Assembly: GCF_000340375.1 (NCBI RefSeq)
Contig: NZ_KB446647.1
Coordinates: 384,166-448,165, forward strand
Source: Eggerthia catenaformis OT 569 = DSM 20559
GTDB taxonomy: Bacteria; Bacillota_I; Bacilli_A; Erysipelotrichales; Coprobacillaceae
Direction: 5' to 3'
DNA: 64,000 bases
Below the pieces are notes generated by a model. It saw only the letters and a list, made by a program, of their open reading frames with translations. It had not been told where the DNA came from and did no database searches. Of the stretch, positions 7,041 through 50,376 are shown piece after piece (position 1 is the stretch's first letter; the number at the start of each line of letters is the position of its first letter). A program made the translations under genes and the position numbers.

Positions 7041-7070
7041 ATAAGAAAGGATGAAGAATATTCTTCATCC
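7041..7070 (-). terminator. rho-independent terminator after clpB
   Basis: A perfect 22-nt inverted repeat (7049-7070, arms GGATGAAGAAT / ATTCTTCATCC) directly follows the clpB stop. It is followed on the minus strand by the T-rich run CTTTCTTATTTT. Confidence 0.85.
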
Positions 7071-9640
7071 TAATTCAATCCATCATGAATCACAAACCCA
7101 TGATCATAATCAACAATAATATGACTATTTGCTTTAATAGTACCTTTAATAATTTCTTTAGCCAGCATAGTTTCGATATGAGACTGAATATATCTCTTAA
7201 TAGGTCTTGCTCCAAAGGTTATATCAAAGGCATCATTAGCAATCTGACTTTTAGCCTGTTCAGTAATTTCAACAGTTATCTTCTGTTCTTCCAATCTATT
7301 CTCTAATTCTTTTATAAACTTATCAATAATTTTATAAATAACTCTGTTATCAAGAGAATTAAACATAATAATTTCATCAATTCGATTTAAAAATTCCGGT
7401 TTAAAATGCGCTTTCAAATCATTTTCTGCCATTGTTCTTGTCTCATCATTATTACCTTGAAGAAGATACTGTGAGCCGATATTAGATGTCATAATAATAA
7501 TTGTATTTTTAAATGAAACAACATTTCCCTTTGAATCAGTTAAACGTCCATCATCTAATAATTGAAGCAGAATATTGAAAACATCCGGATGAGCTTTTTC
7601 TATTTCATCTAAAAGAACAATAGAATAAGGAGCTCTTCTTACTGCTTCAGTAAGCTGACCGCCTTGATCATATCCAACATATCCTGGCGGTGCACCAATA
7701 AGCCTTGAGACACTGAATTTTTCCATGTATTCGCTCATATCAATACGTACAATATTCTTTTCACTGTCAAAAAGCTGTTCTGCAAGACTCTTAGCTACTT
7801 CAGTTTTACCAACACCGGTAGGACCGAGGAATAAGAAAGAACCAATTGGTCTATTCACATCATTAATTCCTGCTCTGCTCCTTAAAATAGCATCAGCAAC
7901 TTTACTTACAGCCATATCCTGACCAATTACTCGTTCTTTAATAGCCGCTTCCAGTCCTAAAAGCTTCTCTTTTTCTGATTGAACAAGCTTTGATACCGGA
8001 ATATGTGTCCATCTGGAAATAACTTCGCTGATTGTATCAGCAGTTACTTTTTCCTGTAATAATGCATCCTCTTTTTCCTGTGCCTGCAATGTTTCTATTT
8101 CCTTGCTTATATGAGGAAGAGTCTCATATTTTATACGAGAAGCTATTTCTAGATTACCTTCTGTTTCAGCCTGAGCCATTTCCTGCTCCAATCTTTGTTT
8201 CTGATGCTTTAATTCTTTAACATGATCTAATGAAGATTTCTCTGTTTTCCACTTATCAGTAAGACCCTGAATTTTTTCATCCAATGAAGCAATATGAGCT
8301 CTAATATCTTCTAATCGATTTCTTGTTTCATTAGTCTGATCCTCTTTTTCAATAGAAATTCTTTCCATTTCAAGTCTATTCTTATCACGTGTTAAAGTAT
8401 CCAGTTCTTCCGGCAAAGAGTCAATTTCCATTCTAATAGAAGCACAGGCTTCATCGATCAAATCAATAGCCTTATCAGGTAAAAAACGATCAGTAATATA
8501 ACGATCACTCATATGAGCAGCTGCAATAATAGCATTATCAGTAATCTGTACGCCATGGTGTGTTTCAAAAGATTCTTTTAGCCCTCTTAAAATTGCGATT
8601 GTATCATCAATATCCGGCTGAGCAACTAAAACCTTTTGAAAACGTCTTTCTAAGGCAGCATCCTTCTCAATATATTCACGATATTCATTAAGTGTCGTTG
8701 CGCCAATACAATGTAACTCACCACGAGCAAGCATTGGCTTCAACAGATTGGCTGCATCCATTGCTCCATCAGTTTTACCGGCACCAACAAGCTGATGGAT
8801 TTCATCAATAAACAAAATAATATGTCCTTCTGATTTATTAATTTCATTTAAAACAGCTTTTAATCTTTCCTCAAATTCCCCGCGATATTTTGCTCCGGCA
8901 ACAAGTGATCCAAGATCTAATTCAAATAATGTTTTATCCTTTAAAGTTTCAGGAACATCATTCTTATAGATACGCCATGCCAAACCCTCAACAATTGCGG
9001 TTTTACCAACCCCCGGTTCACCAATTAAGATAGGATTATTTTTTGTTTTACGAGAAAGTATCTGAATAACTCTTCTGATCTCATCATCTCTGCCAATTAT
9101 TGGATCAAGCTTTCCATCTCTTACGTCTTTAATAAGATCACGTCCATATTTTTCCAGTACTTCATAATTGTTTTCCGGTGTTGGATTATCGATAGTATGA
9201 CCGCCTCTCATTGTATCAATAATATCTTTGATTTGTTTCTTATCCAAATGAAAGTGATTATTAAACTCTTTAAGAAAAGCACTATTTGTATCAAACAAAG
9301 AAAGAATCAAATGTTCAACAGATAAATAGCTATCTTTATAATCATTCATAATCTTACGAGCATTAGAAAGTAATGTATTAAGGTCATAGCTGATTCTTAA
9401 TTCTTCTTCATTGACATGAGAAACTGAAGGTTTCTGATTAATATGAGCATTTAAATAATCTCTTACATCATTGATACTTATATTCAATTTCGTAAGAATC
9501 CGATAAAATATTCCCGAAGAATCTTCAAGACAGGCATAAAGCAGATCATCAATATCAATAACTTGATGGTTAAGATTCATTGCCTGACTGGCAGCCTGAC
9601 TAAAAGCTTTCTGCATAGCTTCTGTAAATTTATCATTCAT
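7070..9640 (-). CDS. clpB: ATP-dependent disaggregase ClpB
   Basis: A full-length Hsp100 disaggregase of 856 residues that works with DnaK to recover aggregated protein. In order: N-terminal Clp-N repeat domain (1-145), first AAA+ with Walker A GEPGVGKT (207-214) and IDEIHQL, a coiled-coil middle domain (about 400-525) that separates ClpB from ClpA/C, second AAA+ with GPTGVGKT (606-613), and a C-terminal small domain. The ATG at 9640 is 8 nt after GGAG. Two CIRCE operators flank the promoter, indicating HrcA repression. It is monocistronic. Confidence 0.97.
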
Positions 9641-20170: not shown

Positions 20171-20396
20171 AAAAAAAGAATCCATCACTAAAGGACGAAT
20201 TCTCGCGGTACCACCTTTATTTGTATATTTCTATACACACTCATTATTTTAACGATGTGATGCACCGTCTAAGCTTTGCACTTAGCTGCTCCAAAGTGTA
20301 TTCATTATTATCTTTTAAATTCTTTCCACCAATCAGAATCTCTCTTTATAAAACATAATAATTACTTATCTTCTTCAACGCTTTACTATAAACTAC
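20171..20396 (-). ncRNA. T-box riboswitch, Tyr specifier UAC (tyrS leader)
   Basis: The T-box core GGTGGTACCGCG is at about 20215-20204. It is followed by a terminator with the 9-bp stem GAATTCGTC / GATGGATTC (20202-20178) and seven T residues (20177-20171). Upstream are an AG-rich AAGAGAGA, the Stem I element GGTGGAAAGA, and GAATACACTTTGGAG. The codon just before ACUUUGGAG is the specifier UAC (20300-20298). The same register reads GGC in the well-known glyQS leader. The 5' end is approximate. Confidence 0.93.
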
Positions 20397-32492: not shown

Positions 32493-32700
32493 AAAAAAAG
32501 ACATCCTCTAAGGACGTCATTCACGCGGTACCACCTTAGTTTGTATTTTTCAATACACACTTTATTCTCTTAACGCGAGATAACGTGCTTGTTTAGAGCA
32601 TTCTCCAAAGTGTCCCATAGTATTTCTATCATTATTTCCACCAGCCATAATGTCTCTATAAAAGATTTACTATTTAATCTTTTTCACTGAATATGATGTG
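32493..32700 (-). ncRNA. T-box riboswitch, Asp specifier GAC (hisS-aspS leader)
   Basis: The core GGTGGTACCGCG (about 32535-32524) is followed by a terminator with stem GACGTCCT / AGGATGTC (32518-32500) and seven T residues. Upstream are AGAGACA, GGTGGAAATAATG and GGGACACTTTGGAG. The triplet before ACUUUGGAG is GAC (32614-32612), aspartate. The operon starts with hisS, yet the codon is Asp, as described for other Firmicutes hisS-aspS operons. A CAC (His) overlaps two bases downstream. Confidence 0.93.
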
Positions 32701-35092: not shown

Positions 35093-35116
35093 AAAAAGAG
35101 ACAGGTGTCTCTTTTT
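35093..35116 (-). terminator. terminator after apt
   Basis: A 10-bp stem AAAAAGAGAC / GTCTCTTTTT with a tight AGGT loop, followed by TTCTT on the minus strand, overlapping the apt stop. Confidence 0.8.
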
Positions 35117-35627
35117 AATAAGTTAAAATAGAAAAAATGTCGTAGCCTTCTAAAAGATCTCTGCCATGTAAATCTAGCAATTCAATCACAAAAGCACAGC
35201 CAGCAACTTCTCCGCCCATTTCTTCAACAAGTTCAATTGCCGCTTTAACAGTTCCGCCGGTAGCAAGTAAATCATCTACCAGTAAAACTTTCTGTCCCGG
35301 TTTAATTGAATCTTTATGCATAAATATTTCATTTGAACCATATTCTAAATCATAAGTACGACTTACTGTTTCTCTAGGCAGCTTACCGGGTTTTCTGACA
35401 GGAGCAAAGCCGGCATTTAAGCTAATAGCCGTAGGACAGCCATACAAAAAGCCTCTAGCTTCAGGTCCAACAACAATATCAATATTTTTATTTTTCGCAA
35501 AGTCAGTAATCTGACGAATAGATTCAGCAAAAGCTTCTCCATCCTGTAGCATCGGCGTTACATCTCTGAATATAATTCCTTTCTGTGGGAAATCAGGAAT
35601 ATCTGCTACATATTTTTTTAAATCCAT
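35115..35627 (-). CDS. apt: adenine phosphoribosyltransferase
   Basis: Salvages adenine to AMP with PRPP. It has 170 residues from the chosen start. [16 protein letters not shown] opens the fold and [21 protein letters not shown] is the PRPP-binding loop. The ATG at 35627 is 7 nt after GGAGG; an upstream in-frame ATG (35654) would place the ribosome binding site inside the gene. It sits next to rsh, as in many Firmicutes. Confidence 0.97.
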
Positions 35628-35672
35628 AACGATTCCTCCTATAACATAAGTCATTATATCAAATTTTATTTA

Positions 35673-35718: not shown

Positions 35719-37218
35719 TTATAAAATATGAGTTGAATAAGCAGAAAGCTTAATATTTTTATTATCAATTTCAATACTCTTTTCTTTATCAGAAAGATTA
35801 TGGACAACTAAAGATTTTTTATCTTTGTACTGTCTATAAAATGCCAGTACTTGGTCATCTTTTGTCTCAGCAATTAAAAAATCACCATATTTTAAAGCGC
35901 TATTTGATTTTCTCAATTGAATCATTTTTTTATAATGATTATATAATGACTGGGCATTCTTTTTCTGTGCTAATAAAGAGGTTGTCTGCTTATTATATAA
36001 AGAAGCCTGCCATTTAGTCTGGTACTTATTCCCCCATACATATCCTTCTCTAATATTTTCATCAGGCTTCTGCCCTTTCATACCTAATTCTTCACCATAA
36101 TAAATAAAAGGATTGCCGGGTAATGTCAGCAGTATTGAAGCTGCAAGTTTTTGTTGAGAAAGACTCTCTAATGTTTGGGCAATTCTATTCTGATCATGAT
36201 TACTTAAAAACGGAGCATCAATATAATTCTTTGTTTCTTGTTTATAGCTATCATAAATGAGTGGTATCTTTGTTGAAAGACCGCCGGCACTTTGCATTAG
36301 AATAGCTTTAGTAATACCATTTTCTGATAAATCAAAATTAAAATTAGAATCAAAAACTTTATAATATTGTGAGACAATATTACTGTTCATCCATACTTCG
36401 CCTACAAGATATACATCCTTATTTGTCTTCCTCATAGCTTCTCTATATTCAGCCCACCAGTTAATATTCTCTTTTGATGAATCAATTTCACTGGAATATT
36501 CAGCTTTTCCATAGATATGTGCTGCTGCATCTAATCTGTATCCATCCAGTCCTGTCTCCTTAAGCCAATACTGCCCTATTTTTTTCATCTCATCTCTAAC
36601 TTTCTGATTGCTGAAGTTCAGATCGGGCATACTTTCAGAAAATAAAGCATAATAGAGCTCTTGATCATTAAGCTTATTCCATGATTTATGTCCCATCTCA
36701 ATAGACTTTGTATTAATCTTCTTATTATCTTTATCAGTAATACGATAATATGACTTATACTGGCTATCTTTATTTTTTAAAACATCTTTAAACCATGAAT
36801 GCTGATGACTGGTATGATTAATAGGCATATCAATAATAACCTTAATCTTTTTATCATGAGCCTCTTTAACAAGATTTTTAAGATCTTCTATAGTTCCATA
36901 TTCCTTATCTATTTTATAATAATCAGTTACATCATATTTATGATAGCTTGGTGATTGAAAAATAGGTGTCAGCCATATGCCTTCAACTCCTAATTCTGAA
37001 AGCTCCTTAAGATTTTCTCTGATCCCATTAAGATCACCAATACCATCTCCATCACTGTCAGCATAAGATCTTACAAATATCTCATAGTATGTTCCCGACT
37101 TCTTTAGTTTTGTTTCCTCAGTATTTTCATAAAATGAGACTTCTTTTGGCTTAGTTTCTGATGTACATCCTATTAATATAAAAGAACTGAGTAAAAAAAC
37201 AATAATTTTCCTTTTCAT
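35719..37218 (-). CDS. lipoprotein alpha-amylase (GH13)
   Basis: A surface lipoprotein glucosidase of 499 residues. A signal peptide ends in the lipobox LIGC (Cys18). The GH13 barrel shows DMPINH, the nucleophile D230 in GYRLDAAAH, the acid/base E274 in LVGEVW, and D342 in FLSNHDQNR. DSDGDGIGD is the calcium-type loop. It probably cleaves maltodextrins or starch outside the cell; the exact bond specificity is not visible. The ATG at 37218 is 8 nt after AAAGGAG. It is flanked by terminators and breaks the usual apt-recJ proximity. Confidence 0.92.
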   Translation of the reverse strand: MKRKIIVFLLSSFILIGCTSETKPKEVSFYENTEETKLKKSGTYYEIFVRSYADSDGDGIGDLNGIRENLKELSELGVEGIWLTPIFQSPSYHKYDVTDYYKIDKEYGTIEDLKNLVKEAHDKKIKVIIDMPINHTSHQHSWFKDVLKNKDSQYKSYYRITDKDNKKINTKSIEMGHKSWNKLNDQELYYALFSESMPDLNFSNQKVRDEMKKIGQYWLKETGLDGYRLDAAAHIYGKAEYSSEIDSSKENINWWAEYREAMRKTNKDVYLVGEVWMNSNIVSQYYKVFDSNFNFDLSENGITKAILMQSAGGLSTKIPLIYDSYKQETKNYIDAPFLSNHDQNRIAQTLESLSQQKLAASILLTLPGNPFIYYGEELGMKGQKPDENIREGYVWGNKYQTKWQASLYNKQTTSLLAQKKNAQSLYNHYKKMIQLRKSNSALKYGDFLIAETKDDQVLAFYRQYKDKKSLVVHNLSDKEKSIEIDNKNIKLSAYSTHIL

Positions 37219-37305
37219 TGACAATACTCCTTTCATATCTATTTTATCAAATATCGGATTATTAAAAAGATAAGATCCTTTCGTTTTATTTCACATTTAT
37301 TAAAA

Positions 37306-37334
37306 AATAACCGATACAAAATATATCGGTTATT
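37306..37334 (-). terminator. terminator after the SPFH/zinc-ribbon pair
   Basis: An 11-bp stem AATAACCGATA / TATCGGTTATT with a 7-nt loop, followed by a T-run on the minus strand, overlapping the last codon. Confidence 0.85.
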
Positions 37335-38796
37335 CATCTAAGCGTTTTGCTTGTTCTTGAAGAAAATCAATTGGTAATCCATTATCCTTTAAATGCTCAA
37401 TAACACTATTTGTAAGTGAAGTATTTGTACCCTTTAATGAAGTATTATTCATTCCTTCAATTGTGGAGCTTCTCAGTCTTCTACGATGCTCCATAAAATT
37501 ATCATATCCCTTGATATCTGACATCTGATGCATAGTTTCACTTTCATAAGTATGTCTTGCCCCGGCATTACGATATCTGGCATACATAATACCAAAGAAC
37601 ACAATACCAGGTAATAAAAGAAGCCATTTAATATGAGAATGAACACGATCATTCACAAACATCAGCAGCAATGCTCCAAATAATTCAACTAAAATGGAAA
37701 CAAGAATCAGCTTCGTCATATTAATAGGAATACTTCCCATTGTTTCTCTAGTACGAGCATTGACTGCTACATAATGAAGCTGCTTTTTACCCCCGCTTGT
37801 CTGAAGATAACTATAAAGCCATACCGGAAGATAAGCAGAAATCCATTTTGATCCCTTAATTTCAAAATTTTCATTTTGCCAAGCGACCCCTCTATCATAA
37901 TTAGTAAGAGTTTTATTAATAGCTATTCTAGAAATATCAGCTGCCTGTACATTCACAATAGACTGAATATCTTTAATATCAATATCTCTTTTCTGAGATG
38001 TATACCCTCTAAGATAATTGGCATTAAATTTGACACAGTTCTTTGTATCAAAAGGCATGATGGAATTTATAATATTCGTCGTCTTTGTAGTATTAGAAAC
38101 ATCTAATTTATCAGCACTTGCTTCAATTGTGAGATCATCAATTATAATATCAAAATCTCTTCCTACATAATAGGCATCTGCATCATAATAAGTCTCTGAG
38201 TCTTTACCGTTTTTTTCTGTATAGCTATGTACAAGATGTTCTCCAATACCTGTTAAATTATGATGTGCATTAATATCTACAATCATATAAGGAAAATAAA
38301 CACCACAAATATTTTCTGTTGTAAATTCTCTAACAAATGTTGGATGGGCAAAAAATTTCCTTTTATTAACAAAATCTTCAATTGCACTTCTGGCATCATC
38401 CTTAGACAAATGAAATGGTAAAACCGCATCACATACTGCACCATTAGGAATCTTCCTGTTAATAGATAAAATATTACGACACCACGGACAGCGTGATTGT
38501 GTTGCTGCTTCAGTATTAACAACAACTTCAGCTCCACAACTCTCACATTTTAAAGTTACAGTATTATCAGCTTCTCTGTCTATATCAGCGGCTCCGGTAG
38601 CTGCCTTAACGCCTTCTAACTGACTGATATCTTCATCATCTTCAATCACATCTAATAAAAATTCATGACGACAAAACTGACAAATCAGTTTACCGGTTTT
38701 AGGATTTGATACAATATCAGTAGCTCCACATTTAGGACATTTTATTTGTCCATCTTTAGCATCCTTATAAATTTCAAAAAGTGATACGTCATCCAT
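37330..38796 (-). CDS. double zinc-ribbon membrane protein (YdjG-like)
   Basis: A protein of 488 residues. It has two N-terminal TFIIB-type zinc ribbons, C20/C23/C39/C42 and C84/C87/C103/C106, then a large mixed region and two membrane helices (about 360-378 and 388-405), with a charged C-terminal tail. This matches YdjG, which in B. subtilis is encoded with PspA-like and SPFH (YdjI) proteins. It starts one base after the SPFH gene stop, so the two are one unit. A role in envelope stress is inferred from the YdjG/YdjI parallel. Confidence 0.78.
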   Translation of the reverse strand: MDDVSLFEIYKDAKDGQIKCPKCGATDIVSNPKTGKLICQFCRHEFLLDVIEDDEDISQLEGVKAATGAADIDREADNTVTLKCESCGAEVVVNTEAATQSRCPWCRNILSINRKIPNGAVCDAVLPFHLSKDDARSAIEDFVNKRKFFAHPTFVREFTTENICGVYFPYMIVDINAHHNLTGIGEHLVHSYTEKNGKDSETYYDADAYYVGRDFDIIIDDLTIEASADKLDVSNTTKTTNIINSIMPFDTKNCVKFNANYLRGYTSQKRDIDIKDIQSIVNVQAADISRIAINKTLTNYDRGVAWQNENFEIKGSKWISAYLPVWLYSYLQTSGGKKQLHYVAVNARTRETMGSIPINMTKLILVSILVELFGALLLMFVNDRVHSHIKWLLLLPGIVFFGIMYARYRNAGARHTYESETMHQMSDIKGYDNFMEHRRRLRSSTIEGMNNTSLKGTNTSLTNSVIEHLKDNGLPIDFLQEQAKRLDE

Positions 38797-38797
38797 A

Positions 38798-39991
38798 CTA
38801 CAACCCTAACAGATTCTTCTTCATCTGATCAAATTCTTCCTGTGTGATAACACCGGCATCAAGCAATTTTTTAGCATTTAATAATTTTTCTGTCGGATCT
38901 TCAGTGCTTTGCTGAGCAGTCTGTTGTTGATTAAAATTAGGTGTATAAGCACCCTGAACATTTGGTTGTTGCATTCCCTGCATCATACCGCCGGCAGCAT
39001 TCATGCCCATTCCCATGAAAGCCATTCCTGTACCGCCTCCATTTTCACCAGCCGCTTGCATGCCTCGAGCTACTGACTGCTGGAAGAAAGCATTTCCTCT
39101 GGCACCGGAAAGAGCATCTGCTTTTTTGACATCGCTCATTAATACCTTTGTATCTTCATCATATTCAATTGATAAAATAGCTGTTTTAACAATTTCTAAT
39201 CCTCTAGAAGTTTTCCACTGATAAGCTGTTTCTACAGCCTGTGAAAGACAGGCAGCAAAACCAATCTGATCAGACTGAATCTTAGACATTCTATTGCCTT
39301 TTGATGGATCATTTGTATATTGTGAGAAAGCTGCTGAAAGACAGCCAACAACTTCATTAAAAAGCTGCTCTCCTGCTGAATTATCCATATCAGCAAAATC
39401 AAATTGAGGAGCATTTGCTGATACATACTTTACTGGTACAAAATTTTTAATAAACATAATCGGATCAGTAATCTGTAAAGTATAAGTTCCTCTGGTAAGT
39501 GCGCCTACCTGTGTTCCAAAATAAGCATCATCCCAATAAATTTCTGATTGTGTTCCAAATCTGTTATTTGGAATTTCTTTCAAATTCACATAGAAAATAA
39601 GCTGCTGAGCAGCTGGAATTCCACCATATTTGAATCTCTCCCAAGACTGTTTTACAAGAGAATCAATAAGACCGCCGCCTGTAAAGATAGATTGTGAATG
39701 AGGATCATTACTACGATATTCATATCCTCCCGGCTGAGTAATAATACCGGTAATAGCTCCCTCCTGAATTGTTACTAAAGCAGTACCTTCAGGAACAATT
39801 ATTTTACTTCCATTTGTAATAATATTCTGACTTCCACGTACATTTGATCCTCTCCCGCTATTCTGTCCCATCAGAACACCTGGAAAAATGGCTGCTGTAG
39901 GAGAAACATTCCCTACAGGAGCATAAAAATCAACCCATTGATCAGCTAAAGTGCCACCTATTGCACCAGCTGCTGCTTGAATAAAACCCAT
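38798..39991 (-). CDS. SPFH-domain protein with C-terminal SHOCT motif (YdjI-like)
   Basis: A protein of 397 residues, with an SPFH/'virion core protein' domain through about residue 290, a Gly/Met/Gln-rich linker (about 300-355), and a C-terminal SHOCT helix-hairpin (EKLLNAKKLLDAGVITQEEFDQMKKNLLG). B. subtilis YdjI recruits the PspA homologue to the membrane. No PspA gene is adjacent here. A 17-nt palindrome sits between promoter and start. It forms an operon with the zinc-ribbon gene. Confidence 0.85.
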   Translation of the reverse strand: MGFIQAAAGAIGGTLADQWVDFYAPVGNVSPTAAIFPGVLMGQNSGRGSNVRGSQNIITNGSKIIVPEGTALVTIQEGAITGIITQPGGYEYRSNDPHSQSIFTGGGLIDSLVKQSWERFKYGGIPAAQQLIFYVNLKEIPNNRFGTQSEIYWDDAYFGTQVGALTRGTYTLQITDPIMFIKNFVPVKYVSANAPQFDFADMDNSAGEQLFNEVVGCLSAAFSQYTNDPSKGNRMSKIQSDQIGFAACLSQAVETAYQWKTSRGLEIVKTAILSIEYDEDTKVLMSDVKKADALSGARGNAFFQQSVARGMQAAGENGGGTGMAFMGMGMNAAGGMMQGMQQPNVQGAYTPNFNQQQTAQQSTEDPTEKLLNAKKLLDAGVITQEEFDQMKKNLLGL

Positions 39992-40003
39992 AGTTTCCCT
40001 TCA

Positions 40004-40020
40004 TTGAACAATTTGTTCAA
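40004..40020. promoter_or_regulatory. palindromic operator upstream of the SPFH gene
   Basis: Perfect inverted repeat TTGAACAATTTGTTCAA, 12 nt upstream of the SPFH start codon and just before its GAAGGG ribosome binding site. It has the geometry of a repressor operator or of a leader hairpin. Confidence 0.6.
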
Positions 40021-40100
40021 TTTTCCTTTCTTGGCATAACTGCCTATTTTATAGTATAAGTTTATCATGTCTTTAAACCATGAGTCAATATTTTCACAAT

Positions 40101-40126
40101 ATAAAAGACATCATAAGATATCTTTT
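40101..40126 (-). terminator. terminator after recJ
   Basis: A 10-bp stem AAAAGATATC / GATGTCTTTT (one G-U pair) with a UUAU loop, overlapping the recJ stop codon. Confidence 0.65.
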
Positions 40127-41727
40127 ATAATCATATTTATACTCTTAACACCTCTAAATTCATTAATAGAAAGAGTGCCGACAAATGTATGTGTAGGAGA
40201 AGAAGCAATAATAGATTTCTTATCACCATTAAAAAAGTAAAGTAATGATAAATTACCGACAGTCATTTTTAAATGCTTGCCTCCGCTTAATTCAATAAAA
40301 TGATCAATTGTTAGATTTTCAATCATAAATAGGGGTTCTTCATTAGACTTTCCATAAGGTTCAAGCTGAGAAAGTGATTCTACATTATCTATTGTCAGAT
40401 CTTCTTTCTGAATCACAATAACATCCTGTGAAGAATTAAATTCCTGATCTTTAAGTTCTTCCAATAAAGCCTGATGAAGTGATTTAAAATGCTCTTTTGA
40501 TACGCTAAATCCTCCTGCCATAGCATGACCGCCAAACTGTTCTAAAAGATTATCATGTTTCAAAAAAAATTTATAAATATTAAAGCCTTCAATACCTCTG
40601 GCACTGCCCCGATAGATTTGTTTTGTTTCATCATAATGCATTACTAAAGCAGGTCTTTCATATTCCCTGGTATATTTGCCCGCAATTAGTCCGATAATAC
40701 CTTCATGAACATCTTTAGATGCATAATAAAGACATTTTTCATGTTCAATCTCTAATGCTTTACGATAAGCCTGATCACTCATTGTCTGACGAAGACTATT
40801 GATTTTAGAAGCATAGGCAGCTATTTTATTCTGATAAGATGGATCTGTATCCTTCAGGAAATACTTAACTAAATGATTAGGATTAACATTCTCCGGAAGC
40901 CTGCCAAATGAATTAATCTTAGGAGCTATGGTAAATCCTATTGTTGTAACATTATATGGCTGTTTTTCTCCTTTTAATAATTCTATAGAGCGATAATGAT
41001 TCTCAGACATAAATTCCAATCCTTTTTCAACAATACTTCTATTCTCATCTAATAAAGGCATCATATCTGAAATTGTTGTTATGGCAGCAAGTGAATAAAG
41101 ATATTTATCATTCATACCGGTTAAAGCGCTTGCCAGCTTAAAAGCTACAAATCCTCCACATATTTCTTTAAAAGGATAATCAGCAGATAGCTTGGTATGA
41201 ATAATACTGGCAGCATCAGGGAGATCCTCTTCTTCATTAAAGGTATGATGATCAGTAATAATAACATCTATTCCTAAACGATTGGCTTCTTCCACTGCTT
41301 CATGAGCTTTAACCCCATTATCTACAGTAATAATTAGTGTATATCCTTTTTCAGCCATCTGTTTGACACGCATACTATTAAGACCATAGCCATCTATAAA
41401 ACGATTAGGAATGTGATAACCGACATCTTTGCCTAAATCTTTAAACGCTTGTACCATAATTGCTGTTGCTAGTATGCCATCGCAGTCATAATCACCATAT
41501 ATACATATTTTTTCATCATTATCCAATGCTTCATGGATACGTTCTAAAGCCATTTCTGCTTCAGAAAATAAATCATACTGATGATAAATCAGCCGATGAC
41601 TGATCATCTGCTGATAGGTATCAATATCCATTTTTTTTGCTTCTATTACTTTTGCAAGTAATGGATTCACATGATAGTCATGCATAATATCATCAGTATG
41701 TTCCAAATATATTTTATGATATAACAT
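40111..41727 (-). CDS. recJ: single-stranded-DNA-specific exonuclease RecJ
   Basis: A DHH-family 5'-to-3' ssDNA exonuclease used in recombination and repair. It has 538 residues, shorter than the B. subtilis protein (about 780) but similar to E. coli. Motifs: GDYDCDG (78-84), DNG (136-138), TDHH (158-161), and the DHHA1 part GGHAMAGGFSV, followed by an OB-like C-terminus. The ATG follows AAGGAG. It lies just downstream of comN, as in Bacillus, where secDF separates them. Confidence 0.94.
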   Translation of the reverse strand: MLYHKIYLEHTDDIMHDYHVNPLLAKVIEAKKMDIDTYQQMISHRLIYHQYDLFSEAEMALERIHEALDNDEKICIYGDYDCDGILATAIMVQAFKDLGKDVGYHIPNRFIDGYGLNSMRVKQMAEKGYTLIITVDNGVKAHEAVEEANRLGIDVIITDHHTFNEEEDLPDAASIIHTKLSADYPFKEICGGFVAFKLASALTGMNDKYLYSLAAITTISDMMPLLDENRSIVEKGLEFMSENHYRSIELLKGEKQPYNVTTIGFTIAPKINSFGRLPENVNPNHLVKYFLKDTDPSYQNKIAAYASKINSLRQTMSDQAYRKALEIEHEKCLYYASKDVHEGIIGLIAGKYTREYERPALVMHYDETKQIYRGSARGIEGFNIYKFFLKHDNLLEQFGGHAMAGGFSVSKEHFKSLHQALLEELKDQEFNSSQDVIVIQKEDLTIDNVESLSQLEPYGKSNEEPLFMIENLTIDHFIELSGGKHLKMTVGNLSLLYFFNGDKKSIIASSPTHTFVGTLSINEFRGVKSINMIIKDIL

Positions 41728-45485: not shown

Positions 45486-45729
45486 AACAAAAACGTCTCT
45501 TGCATATGCAAGAGACGTATATTTACGCGGTACCACTCTTCTTGATAATAGAATTACCCTCTCTCATCCTTAAGGCGGATCCAACCTTTTGTCCTATGAA
45601 TTCAGACAATCCTCTCGAAAGTGCGCTTCATCTTATCTTCTTTGCTAAACTTTCACCATTCTTTCAGCTCGCTTCTTGAAATCTGATAAGACTACTCTCT
45701 TTGTCATCAAGTTTATGTTATTGACAAAT
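45486..45729 (-). ncRNA. T-box riboswitch, predicted Arg specifier CGC (amino-acid importer leader)
   Basis: The T-box core GTGGTACCGCG (about 45536-45526) is followed by a terminator that is a perfect 26-nt inverted repeat (45518-45493, arms starting ACGTCTCTTGC) plus TTTTTGTTTT. Upstream are AAAGAGAGTAG, AATGGTGAAAG and GAAGCGCACTTTCGAG. In the register that gives UAC for tyrS and GAC for hisS, the codon before ACUUUCGAG is CGC (45625-45623), arginine. Confidence 0.88.
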
Positions 45730-50346: not shown

Positions 50347-50376
50347 AGAAAAAACTCAATTCATTGAATTGAGTTT
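50347..50376 (-). terminator. terminator after the hemolysin-III gene
   Basis: A 12-bp stem AAACTCAATTCA / TGAATTGAGTTT with a one-base loop (effectively a 4-nt loop), followed by TTTTTT on the minus strand. Confidence 0.85.

Follow-up and report, generated by a model that had tools for sequence, protein, structure and literature searches.

In Eggerthia catenaformis OT 569 = DSM 20559, a window of 64,000 nucleotides (the whole stretch of DNA analysed here; contig NZ_KB446647.1, positions 384,166 to 448,165) carries two adjacent genes on the minus strand, which encode an SPFH protein and a zinc-ribbon membrane protein related to YdjI and YdjG of Bacillus subtilis, respectively. The two genes probably constitute a membrane-scaffold module that is independent of PspA and represents a variant of the YdjG/YdjI system in which a SHOCT domain takes the place of the C-terminal zinc ribbon. 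The SPFH gene (38798-39991) is an open reading frame (ORF) of 397 codons for a Band_7_1, YdjI-type protein with a C-terminal SHOCT domain, and the YdjG-type gene (37330-38796), an ORF of 488 codons, lies downstream of it with a one-base gap. The initial annotation had described YdjI-like and YdjG-like genes in one unit, a description borne out by the reading frames, their spacing, and the profile comparisons given below. Since the N-terminal residues MGF of the SPFH protein are invariant in 29/29 aligned sequences, its start codon is regarded as well placed.

The SPFH protein is recognized by the Pfam family SPFH/Band_7_1 (PF13421, 37.2 bits against a cut-off of 24) and, at its C-terminus, by the SHOCT family (32.3 bits against a cut-off of 27), and both domains are matched in all 29 aligned members at E <= 0.01. 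The C-terminal zinc ribbon characteristic of YdjI, which is present in the SPFH proteins of the comparator loci L105 and L106, is missing here, and SHOCT occupies that position in 29/29 window-type members. In a profile comparison with hhalign, the window-type SPFH protein matches the SPFH protein of the pspA operon in L105 with a probability of 93.8 and an E value of 1.7e-7. The AlphaFold model of the protein has a mean predicted local distance difference test (pLDDT) score of 66, and its top Foldseek matches in the Protein Data Bank (PDB) are stomatin, erlin, HflK/C, flotillin, and prohibitin, while a PDB sequence search with the SPFH profile returned no matches. A scan for hydrophobic segments revealed neither a transmembrane stretch nor a hydrophobic N-terminal anchor.

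The zinc-ribbon protein is composed of two N-terminal zinc ribbons, a beta-rich middle domain, and C-terminal hydrophobic helices. Its Pfam zinc-ribbon matches all fall under the cut-offs; the eight zinc-ribbon cysteines are invariant across 29 aligned sequences, and two hydrophobic segments are found in the protein by the same scan. Comparison with the YdjG-type protein of the pspA operon in L105 gives an hhalign probability of 99.9 and an E value of 7e-31 over 316 columns, so that the homology spans most of the length of the zinc-ribbon protein. The invariant cysteines, the profile match, and the hydrophobic segments jointly place the protein among the YdjG-type proteins, and the YdjI and YdjG labels of the initial annotation are upheld because the profile comparisons match proteins of a pspA operon. 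Structural searches were less informative: Foldseek with the model of the zinc-ribbon protein gave no match at E <= 0.001, the VIA-align rows (Z <= 5.3) fall mostly on the hydrophobic helices at 358-412 and on portions of the zinc ribbons and barely cover the middle domain, and a PDB sequence search with the zinc-ribbon profile yielded 22 matches confined to the ribbons, the best with an E value of 0.0056. In the model, the beta strands of the middle domain at residues 164-225 and 304-346 are very long and for the most part have high pLDDT, and the model as a whole has no good match in the PDB. A role in anti-phage defence was also considered; PADLOC gave a single weak match (25.9 bits) to residues 10-109, i.e., the zinc ribbons, and none to the SPFH protein, and this match was not counted as evidence.

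The two genes are consistently found together. The loci compared comprise the best 80 of at least 575 relatives from a genome scan, the family relative G018, and the window, 82 in total. The zinc-ribbon gene lies downstream of the SPFH gene on the same strand in 82/82 loci and is directly adjacent to it in all except L021 and L055; the contig ends inside the zinc-ribbon gene in L082 and L086, and the SPFH gene is cut in L039. Outside L021 and L055, which the tree places close to the window copy, no ORF of at least 80 amino acids separates the pair. In these two loci, a small multi-helix protein is encoded between the SPFH and zinc-ribbon genes (L021:7302-7715 and L055:7357-7761), and the one in L021 is without a Pfam match. 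A third obligatory partner gene was sought and rejected, as no additional gene is constant and the commonest extra family, a zinc-ribbon protein of which one tested member also matches Yip1, occurs in 14/82 loci. Separately, among the 69 loci with enough DNA, 13 have a gene for a zinc-ribbon protein with hydrophobic stretches that begins no more than 1.2 kb downstream (e.g., L027:8732-9670), compared with 0/305 upstream ORFs.

The absence of PspA, which the initial annotation had pointed out for this locus, extends to the entire genome of E. catenaformis, in which the PspA/LiaH family (PF04012) has no match, compared with 9 positives among 14 control genomes including B. subtilis. The YdjH-type TPM family (PF04536) is likewise without a match in this genome, and 8 of the 14 control genomes are positive for it. 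Among 40 pair-bearing genomes, which represent half of the 80 related loci, PspA exceeds the cut-off in one, that of Varibaculum. A broader sample consisted of 296 genomes of the same class, requested at a completeness of at least 90%, in which the pair was counted where an SPFH gene (by PF13421 or profile A1) and a zinc-ribbon gene (by profile A2) lie within 3 kb of each other under bit-score limits set for this analysis. PspA exceeds the cut-off in 9 of these 296 genomes. The pair is present in 34, with pspA within 3 kb in three of them (G024, G103, and G123) and PspA anywhere in four; the window-type SPFH protein occurs in 11, all of which (11/11) have the zinc-ribbon partner within 3 kb. 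According to the neighbour counts in the 34 genomes, pairs without PspA predominate in the class sample, and the B. subtilis arrangement is the exception. The missing PspA is thus the normal state of this subfamily rather than a local oddity. Since PspA does not normally accompany the pair, its two proteins work by themselves or with a different partner, in line with the proposal made in the initial annotation.

According to the passages considered, the pspA-ydjGHI operon of B. subtilis resembles the window pair in co-encoding an SPFH protein and a double-zinc-ribbon membrane protein (PMC8581546, PMC11237479, PMC9239133), as do the comparator loci L105-L107. It differs in that neither PspA nor YdjH, the TPM protein, is encoded in the unit or the genome of E. 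catenaformis, and in carrying a C-terminal zinc ribbon on YdjI where the window protein has a SHOCT tail. In L105, which belongs to a genome of the same family (G024), pspA is followed by the gene for an SPFH protein with a C-terminal zinc ribbon and then by those for a zinc-ribbon membrane protein and a TPM protein; of the pair, the SPFH gene comes first both here and in L105, unlike in B. subtilis. The window zinc-ribbon protein is also larger, with 488 amino acids against 326-357 in L105-L107, and apparently contains an extra hydrophobic helix.

Band-7 proteins beside pspA, as well as several PspA-free neighbourhoods, have been reported (Popp et al. 2022, PMC9239133; Ravi et al. 2024, PMC11237479). 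The PspA-free neighbourhoods of Psp partners in the latter study resemble the window in containing band-7 and SHOCT proteins without PspA; its passages describe operons of band-7/flotillin with YqiJ/YuaF and a band-7-2TM-SHOCT protein in polyamine operons and, like those of Popp et al., do not name a pair of SPFH-SHOCT and double-zinc-ribbon proteins (PMC11237479). More generally, a PspA-free SPFH-SHOCT/zinc-ribbon pair was not found described in the titles, abstracts, and passages searched. The flotillins FloA/FloT, stomatin, and HflK/C share the SPFH fold with the window protein, which differs from them in lacking a hydrophobic N-terminal anchor and in having a zinc-ribbon membrane protein as its partner. 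Flotillin-type and HflK/C-type proteins have NfeD and FtsH as partners. Unlike for flotillins and HflK/C, no protease or NfeD-type gene was recognized beside the window pair.

In the proposed mechanism, the SPFH protein would oligomerize at the inner side of the membrane, where the YdjG-type protein would retain it; the zinc ribbons of the latter are predicted to be cytoplasmic, and its C-terminal hydrophobic helices would lie in the membrane. The SHOCT tail, replacing the C-terminal zinc ribbon of YdjI, may serve as an oligomerization or docking element, and the resulting scaffold would perform its membrane task without PspA or YdjH. The counterparts in B. subtilis are described as holding PspA at the membrane and affecting the fluidity of the membrane and the synthesis of the cell wall during stress; YdjI, probably a soluble protein, depends on YdjG and YdjH to reach the membrane, and its loss lowers membrane fluidity (PMC8581546). 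Under alkaline stress, the loss of YdjG or YdjH deregulates wall synthesis, while the loss of PspA or YdjI has no such strong phenotype (PMC8581546), which suggests PspA-independent functions of the YdjG branch and would fit a PspA-free pair.

Several considerations weigh against a PspA-independent scaffold. At the mean pLDDT noted above, the whole-chain template modelling (TM) scores of the SPFH model are low (<= 0.30 by query length), many of the 40 pair-bearing genomes are metagenome bins, where a gene that seems absent may fall in a gap, and no experiment on a member of the subfamily was found in the literature. In two-hybrid tests in B. subtilis, YdjI is bound by YdjH (PMC8581546), a protein missing here, so that direct contact between YdjG and YdjI is only putative. 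The envelope-stress link of the pair would follow by homology alone, and an unrelated protein may supply a PspA-like function. Alternatively, the pair might still serve a PspA-like protein of the ESCRT-III type that has diverged too far for PF04012, as could be expected from the binding of PspA by YdjI in B. subtilis (PMC8581546) and from sub-threshold PF04012 matches in two of the 40 pair-bearing genomes. Both matches lie inside frames of 787-1667 amino acids, unlike PspA; the family model detects its members in control genomes across phyla, and the pair has no regular third companion gene. A hidden PspA of this kind is accordingly considered improbable, and the two-gene scaffold acting without PspA is the preferred interpretation.

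The regulation of the pair is a separate matter. As the initial annotation had stated, a perfect palindrome of 17 bases, TTGAACAATTTGTTCAA, lies next to the start codon of the SPFH gene; the match at 40004-40020 is exact and even extends to a dyad of 19 bases (40003-40021). Twelve bases separate the 17-mer from the ATG at 39991, and a Shine-Dalgarno-like GAAGGG (39997-40002, minus strand), assigned from the sequence and located 5 bases before this ATG, directly abuts the 19-mer. Further upstream, a promoter-like site (40059-40088, minus strand; TTGACT and TAAACT separated by 18 bases, with TG preceding the second hexamer) matches the consensus only and is rated weak, the scanned region containing 27 such sites against a shuffle mean of 33. 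The window contains 5 dyads with arms of at least 9 bases and at most one central base, compared with 1.4 (standard deviation 1.2) in 60 shuffles, and three of the five exceed the palindrome beside the pair in arm length, so that the dyad is somewhat unexpected and not exceptional in a window with a guanine-cytosine (GC) content of 32%. The three longer dyads, with arms of 12-13 bases, are located at 7048-7071, 45493-45518, and 50352-50376, the second overlapping the edge of a T-box leader.

The palindrome may be the site of a regulator, a leader hairpin beside the ribosome-binding site, or a product of chance. A dedicated repressor binding it between promoter and start codon, as the initial annotation had proposed, would fit the position of the dyad and the excess of such dyads in the window. 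Against this, no second copy exists in the genome at up to 2 mismatches, a result on which a genome-wide operator was rejected; at 3 mismatches the 35 places, including the palindrome itself, are not much above the 21 for a reversed-pattern control, and 8 of 9 near-matches checked lie inside ORFs. Within 150 bases upstream of the 80 other SPFH copies, the nearest word differs by 5 mismatches (in one of the 82 rows the start falls outside the contig). The sole other exact 17-mer in 43 genomes of the family, none from the same genus, is in G021, where it forms part of a longer, terminator-like inverted repeat between convergent genes. This copy (L118:1490-1530) is flanked by genes that, named by eye, are histidine-kinase-like and stomatin-type SPFH-like. 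No DNA-binding regulator was recognized among the neighbours tested (rel, apt, alpha-amylase, recJ, a post-transcriptional-regulator family protein, an aminotransferase, and an ABC ATPase). The repressor is thus left unsupported and appears doubtful, though a protein encoded elsewhere might bind the palindrome.

The palindrome could instead act in the mRNA, where a stem set against the Shine-Dalgarno sequence would tune translation or protect the transcript. An 8-bp stem lies immediately 5' of GAAGGG, and in a separate script the 65-base leader has a z-score of -3.97, the lowest among 81 SPFH leaders, whereas the standard fold tool gives weaker values of -2.86 for 71 bases (2/200 shuffles as stable) and -2.05 for 41 bases (6/200). 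Moreover, a perfect dyad in DNA will always fold as RNA too, no close relative offers covarying bases, and SPFH leaders have on average the same z-score as control leaders (-0.28 in both cases; 150/181 controls folded), from which it follows that there is no conserved leader structure. A hairpin of this kind is a tenable proposal, held with somewhat less than even confidence. A functionless palindrome arising by chance in an AT-rich genome is judged slightly less plausible; it is consistent with the 1.4 comparable dyads of the shuffled window and with the lack of conservation upstream of relatives, and it accounts less readily for the exact placement at the ribosome-binding site and the above-average number of dyads. 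Because the palindrome has no further copies in the genome at up to 2 mismatches or upstream of relatives and the leaders as a group are no more structured than controls, it is treated as private to this copy. A conserved leader element of the SPFH gene was rejected; k-mer enrichment yielded Shine-Dalgarno-like words and CTATTC, and the fold z-scores equal those of controls. The word CTATTC occurs in 17/81 SPFH leaders against 4/181 controls (e.g., L028, L045, L052, and L053), sometimes, by eye, with a matching GAATAG further up, possibly representing a lineage-wide leader stem.

In the genome, the pair and an alpha-amylase gene (35719-37236) fill about 4.5 kb between recJ (40111-41727; Pfam DHH, DHHA1, and RecJ_OB) and apt (35115-35654; Pfam phosphoribosyltransferase), which belong to a recJ-apt-rel gene string; the alpha-amylase gene and rel are also supported by Pfam. 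A terminator-like hairpin with a U run (37301-37335, minus strand; -15 kcal/mol, z -5.2 by folding) overlaps the stop codon of the zinc-ribbon gene and is not listed by the signal scan. Thirty recJ-apt loci of the family, including that of the window, were collected; two of them were too short, and in 24 of the 27 family loci with enough DNA the two genes are adjacent, 40-173 bp apart by match ends, while in the other three, all from one genus, no apt was detected within the 1.5 kb available. In the family relative G018, recJ and apt are adjacent, and the pair is located elsewhere. Given this adjacency in 24/27 loci, the block of the pair and the alpha-amylase gene was probably inserted between recJ and apt, a reading that is well supported by the comparison of gene orders.

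A horizontal origin of the window pair is likely. In the tree, the window SPFH protein groups with Varibaculum (support 100/94, on a long branch) and next with Mogibacterium and Eubacterium infirmum (two Anaerovoracaceae), with which it still groups when Varibaculum is removed (91/84). A forced union with L023, L025, and L029 (two Erysipelotrichaceae-titled and one Bacillales), a group picked post hoc, is rejected by the approximately unbiased (AU) test (p 0.0014), and a forced union with G018 is not rejected (p 0.06). The GC content of the SPFH gene is 39% against 32% for the window, with third-position GC similar to that of the neighbours, which is not decisive for a foreign origin. Elsewhere in the window, three T-box leaders score above the Rfam gathering threshold, at 20188-20387, 32507-32696, and 45508-45716 on the minus strand.

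Some carriers of the PspA-free pair have genomes of about 1 Mb (sizes rounded). It is conceivable, at somewhat less than even odds, that the pair is a self-sufficient membrane-scaffold system that spreads horizontally among small-genome Firmicutes, with at least one actinobacterium among its carriers, and replaces the PspA response altogether; the membrane clients encoded next to it, zinc-ribbon or multi-helix proteins, would then be interchangeable. In the literature consulted, YdjG, YdjH, and YdjI are treated as anchors of PspA, and a large bacterial group keeps the SPFH/zinc-ribbon part without detectable PspA. Strict pairing in the absence of PspA makes the scaffold's own role a question that can be asked and is open to direct test, and the pair is predicted to be a PspA-free device for envelope maintenance in host-associated anaerobes, some of which are culturable.

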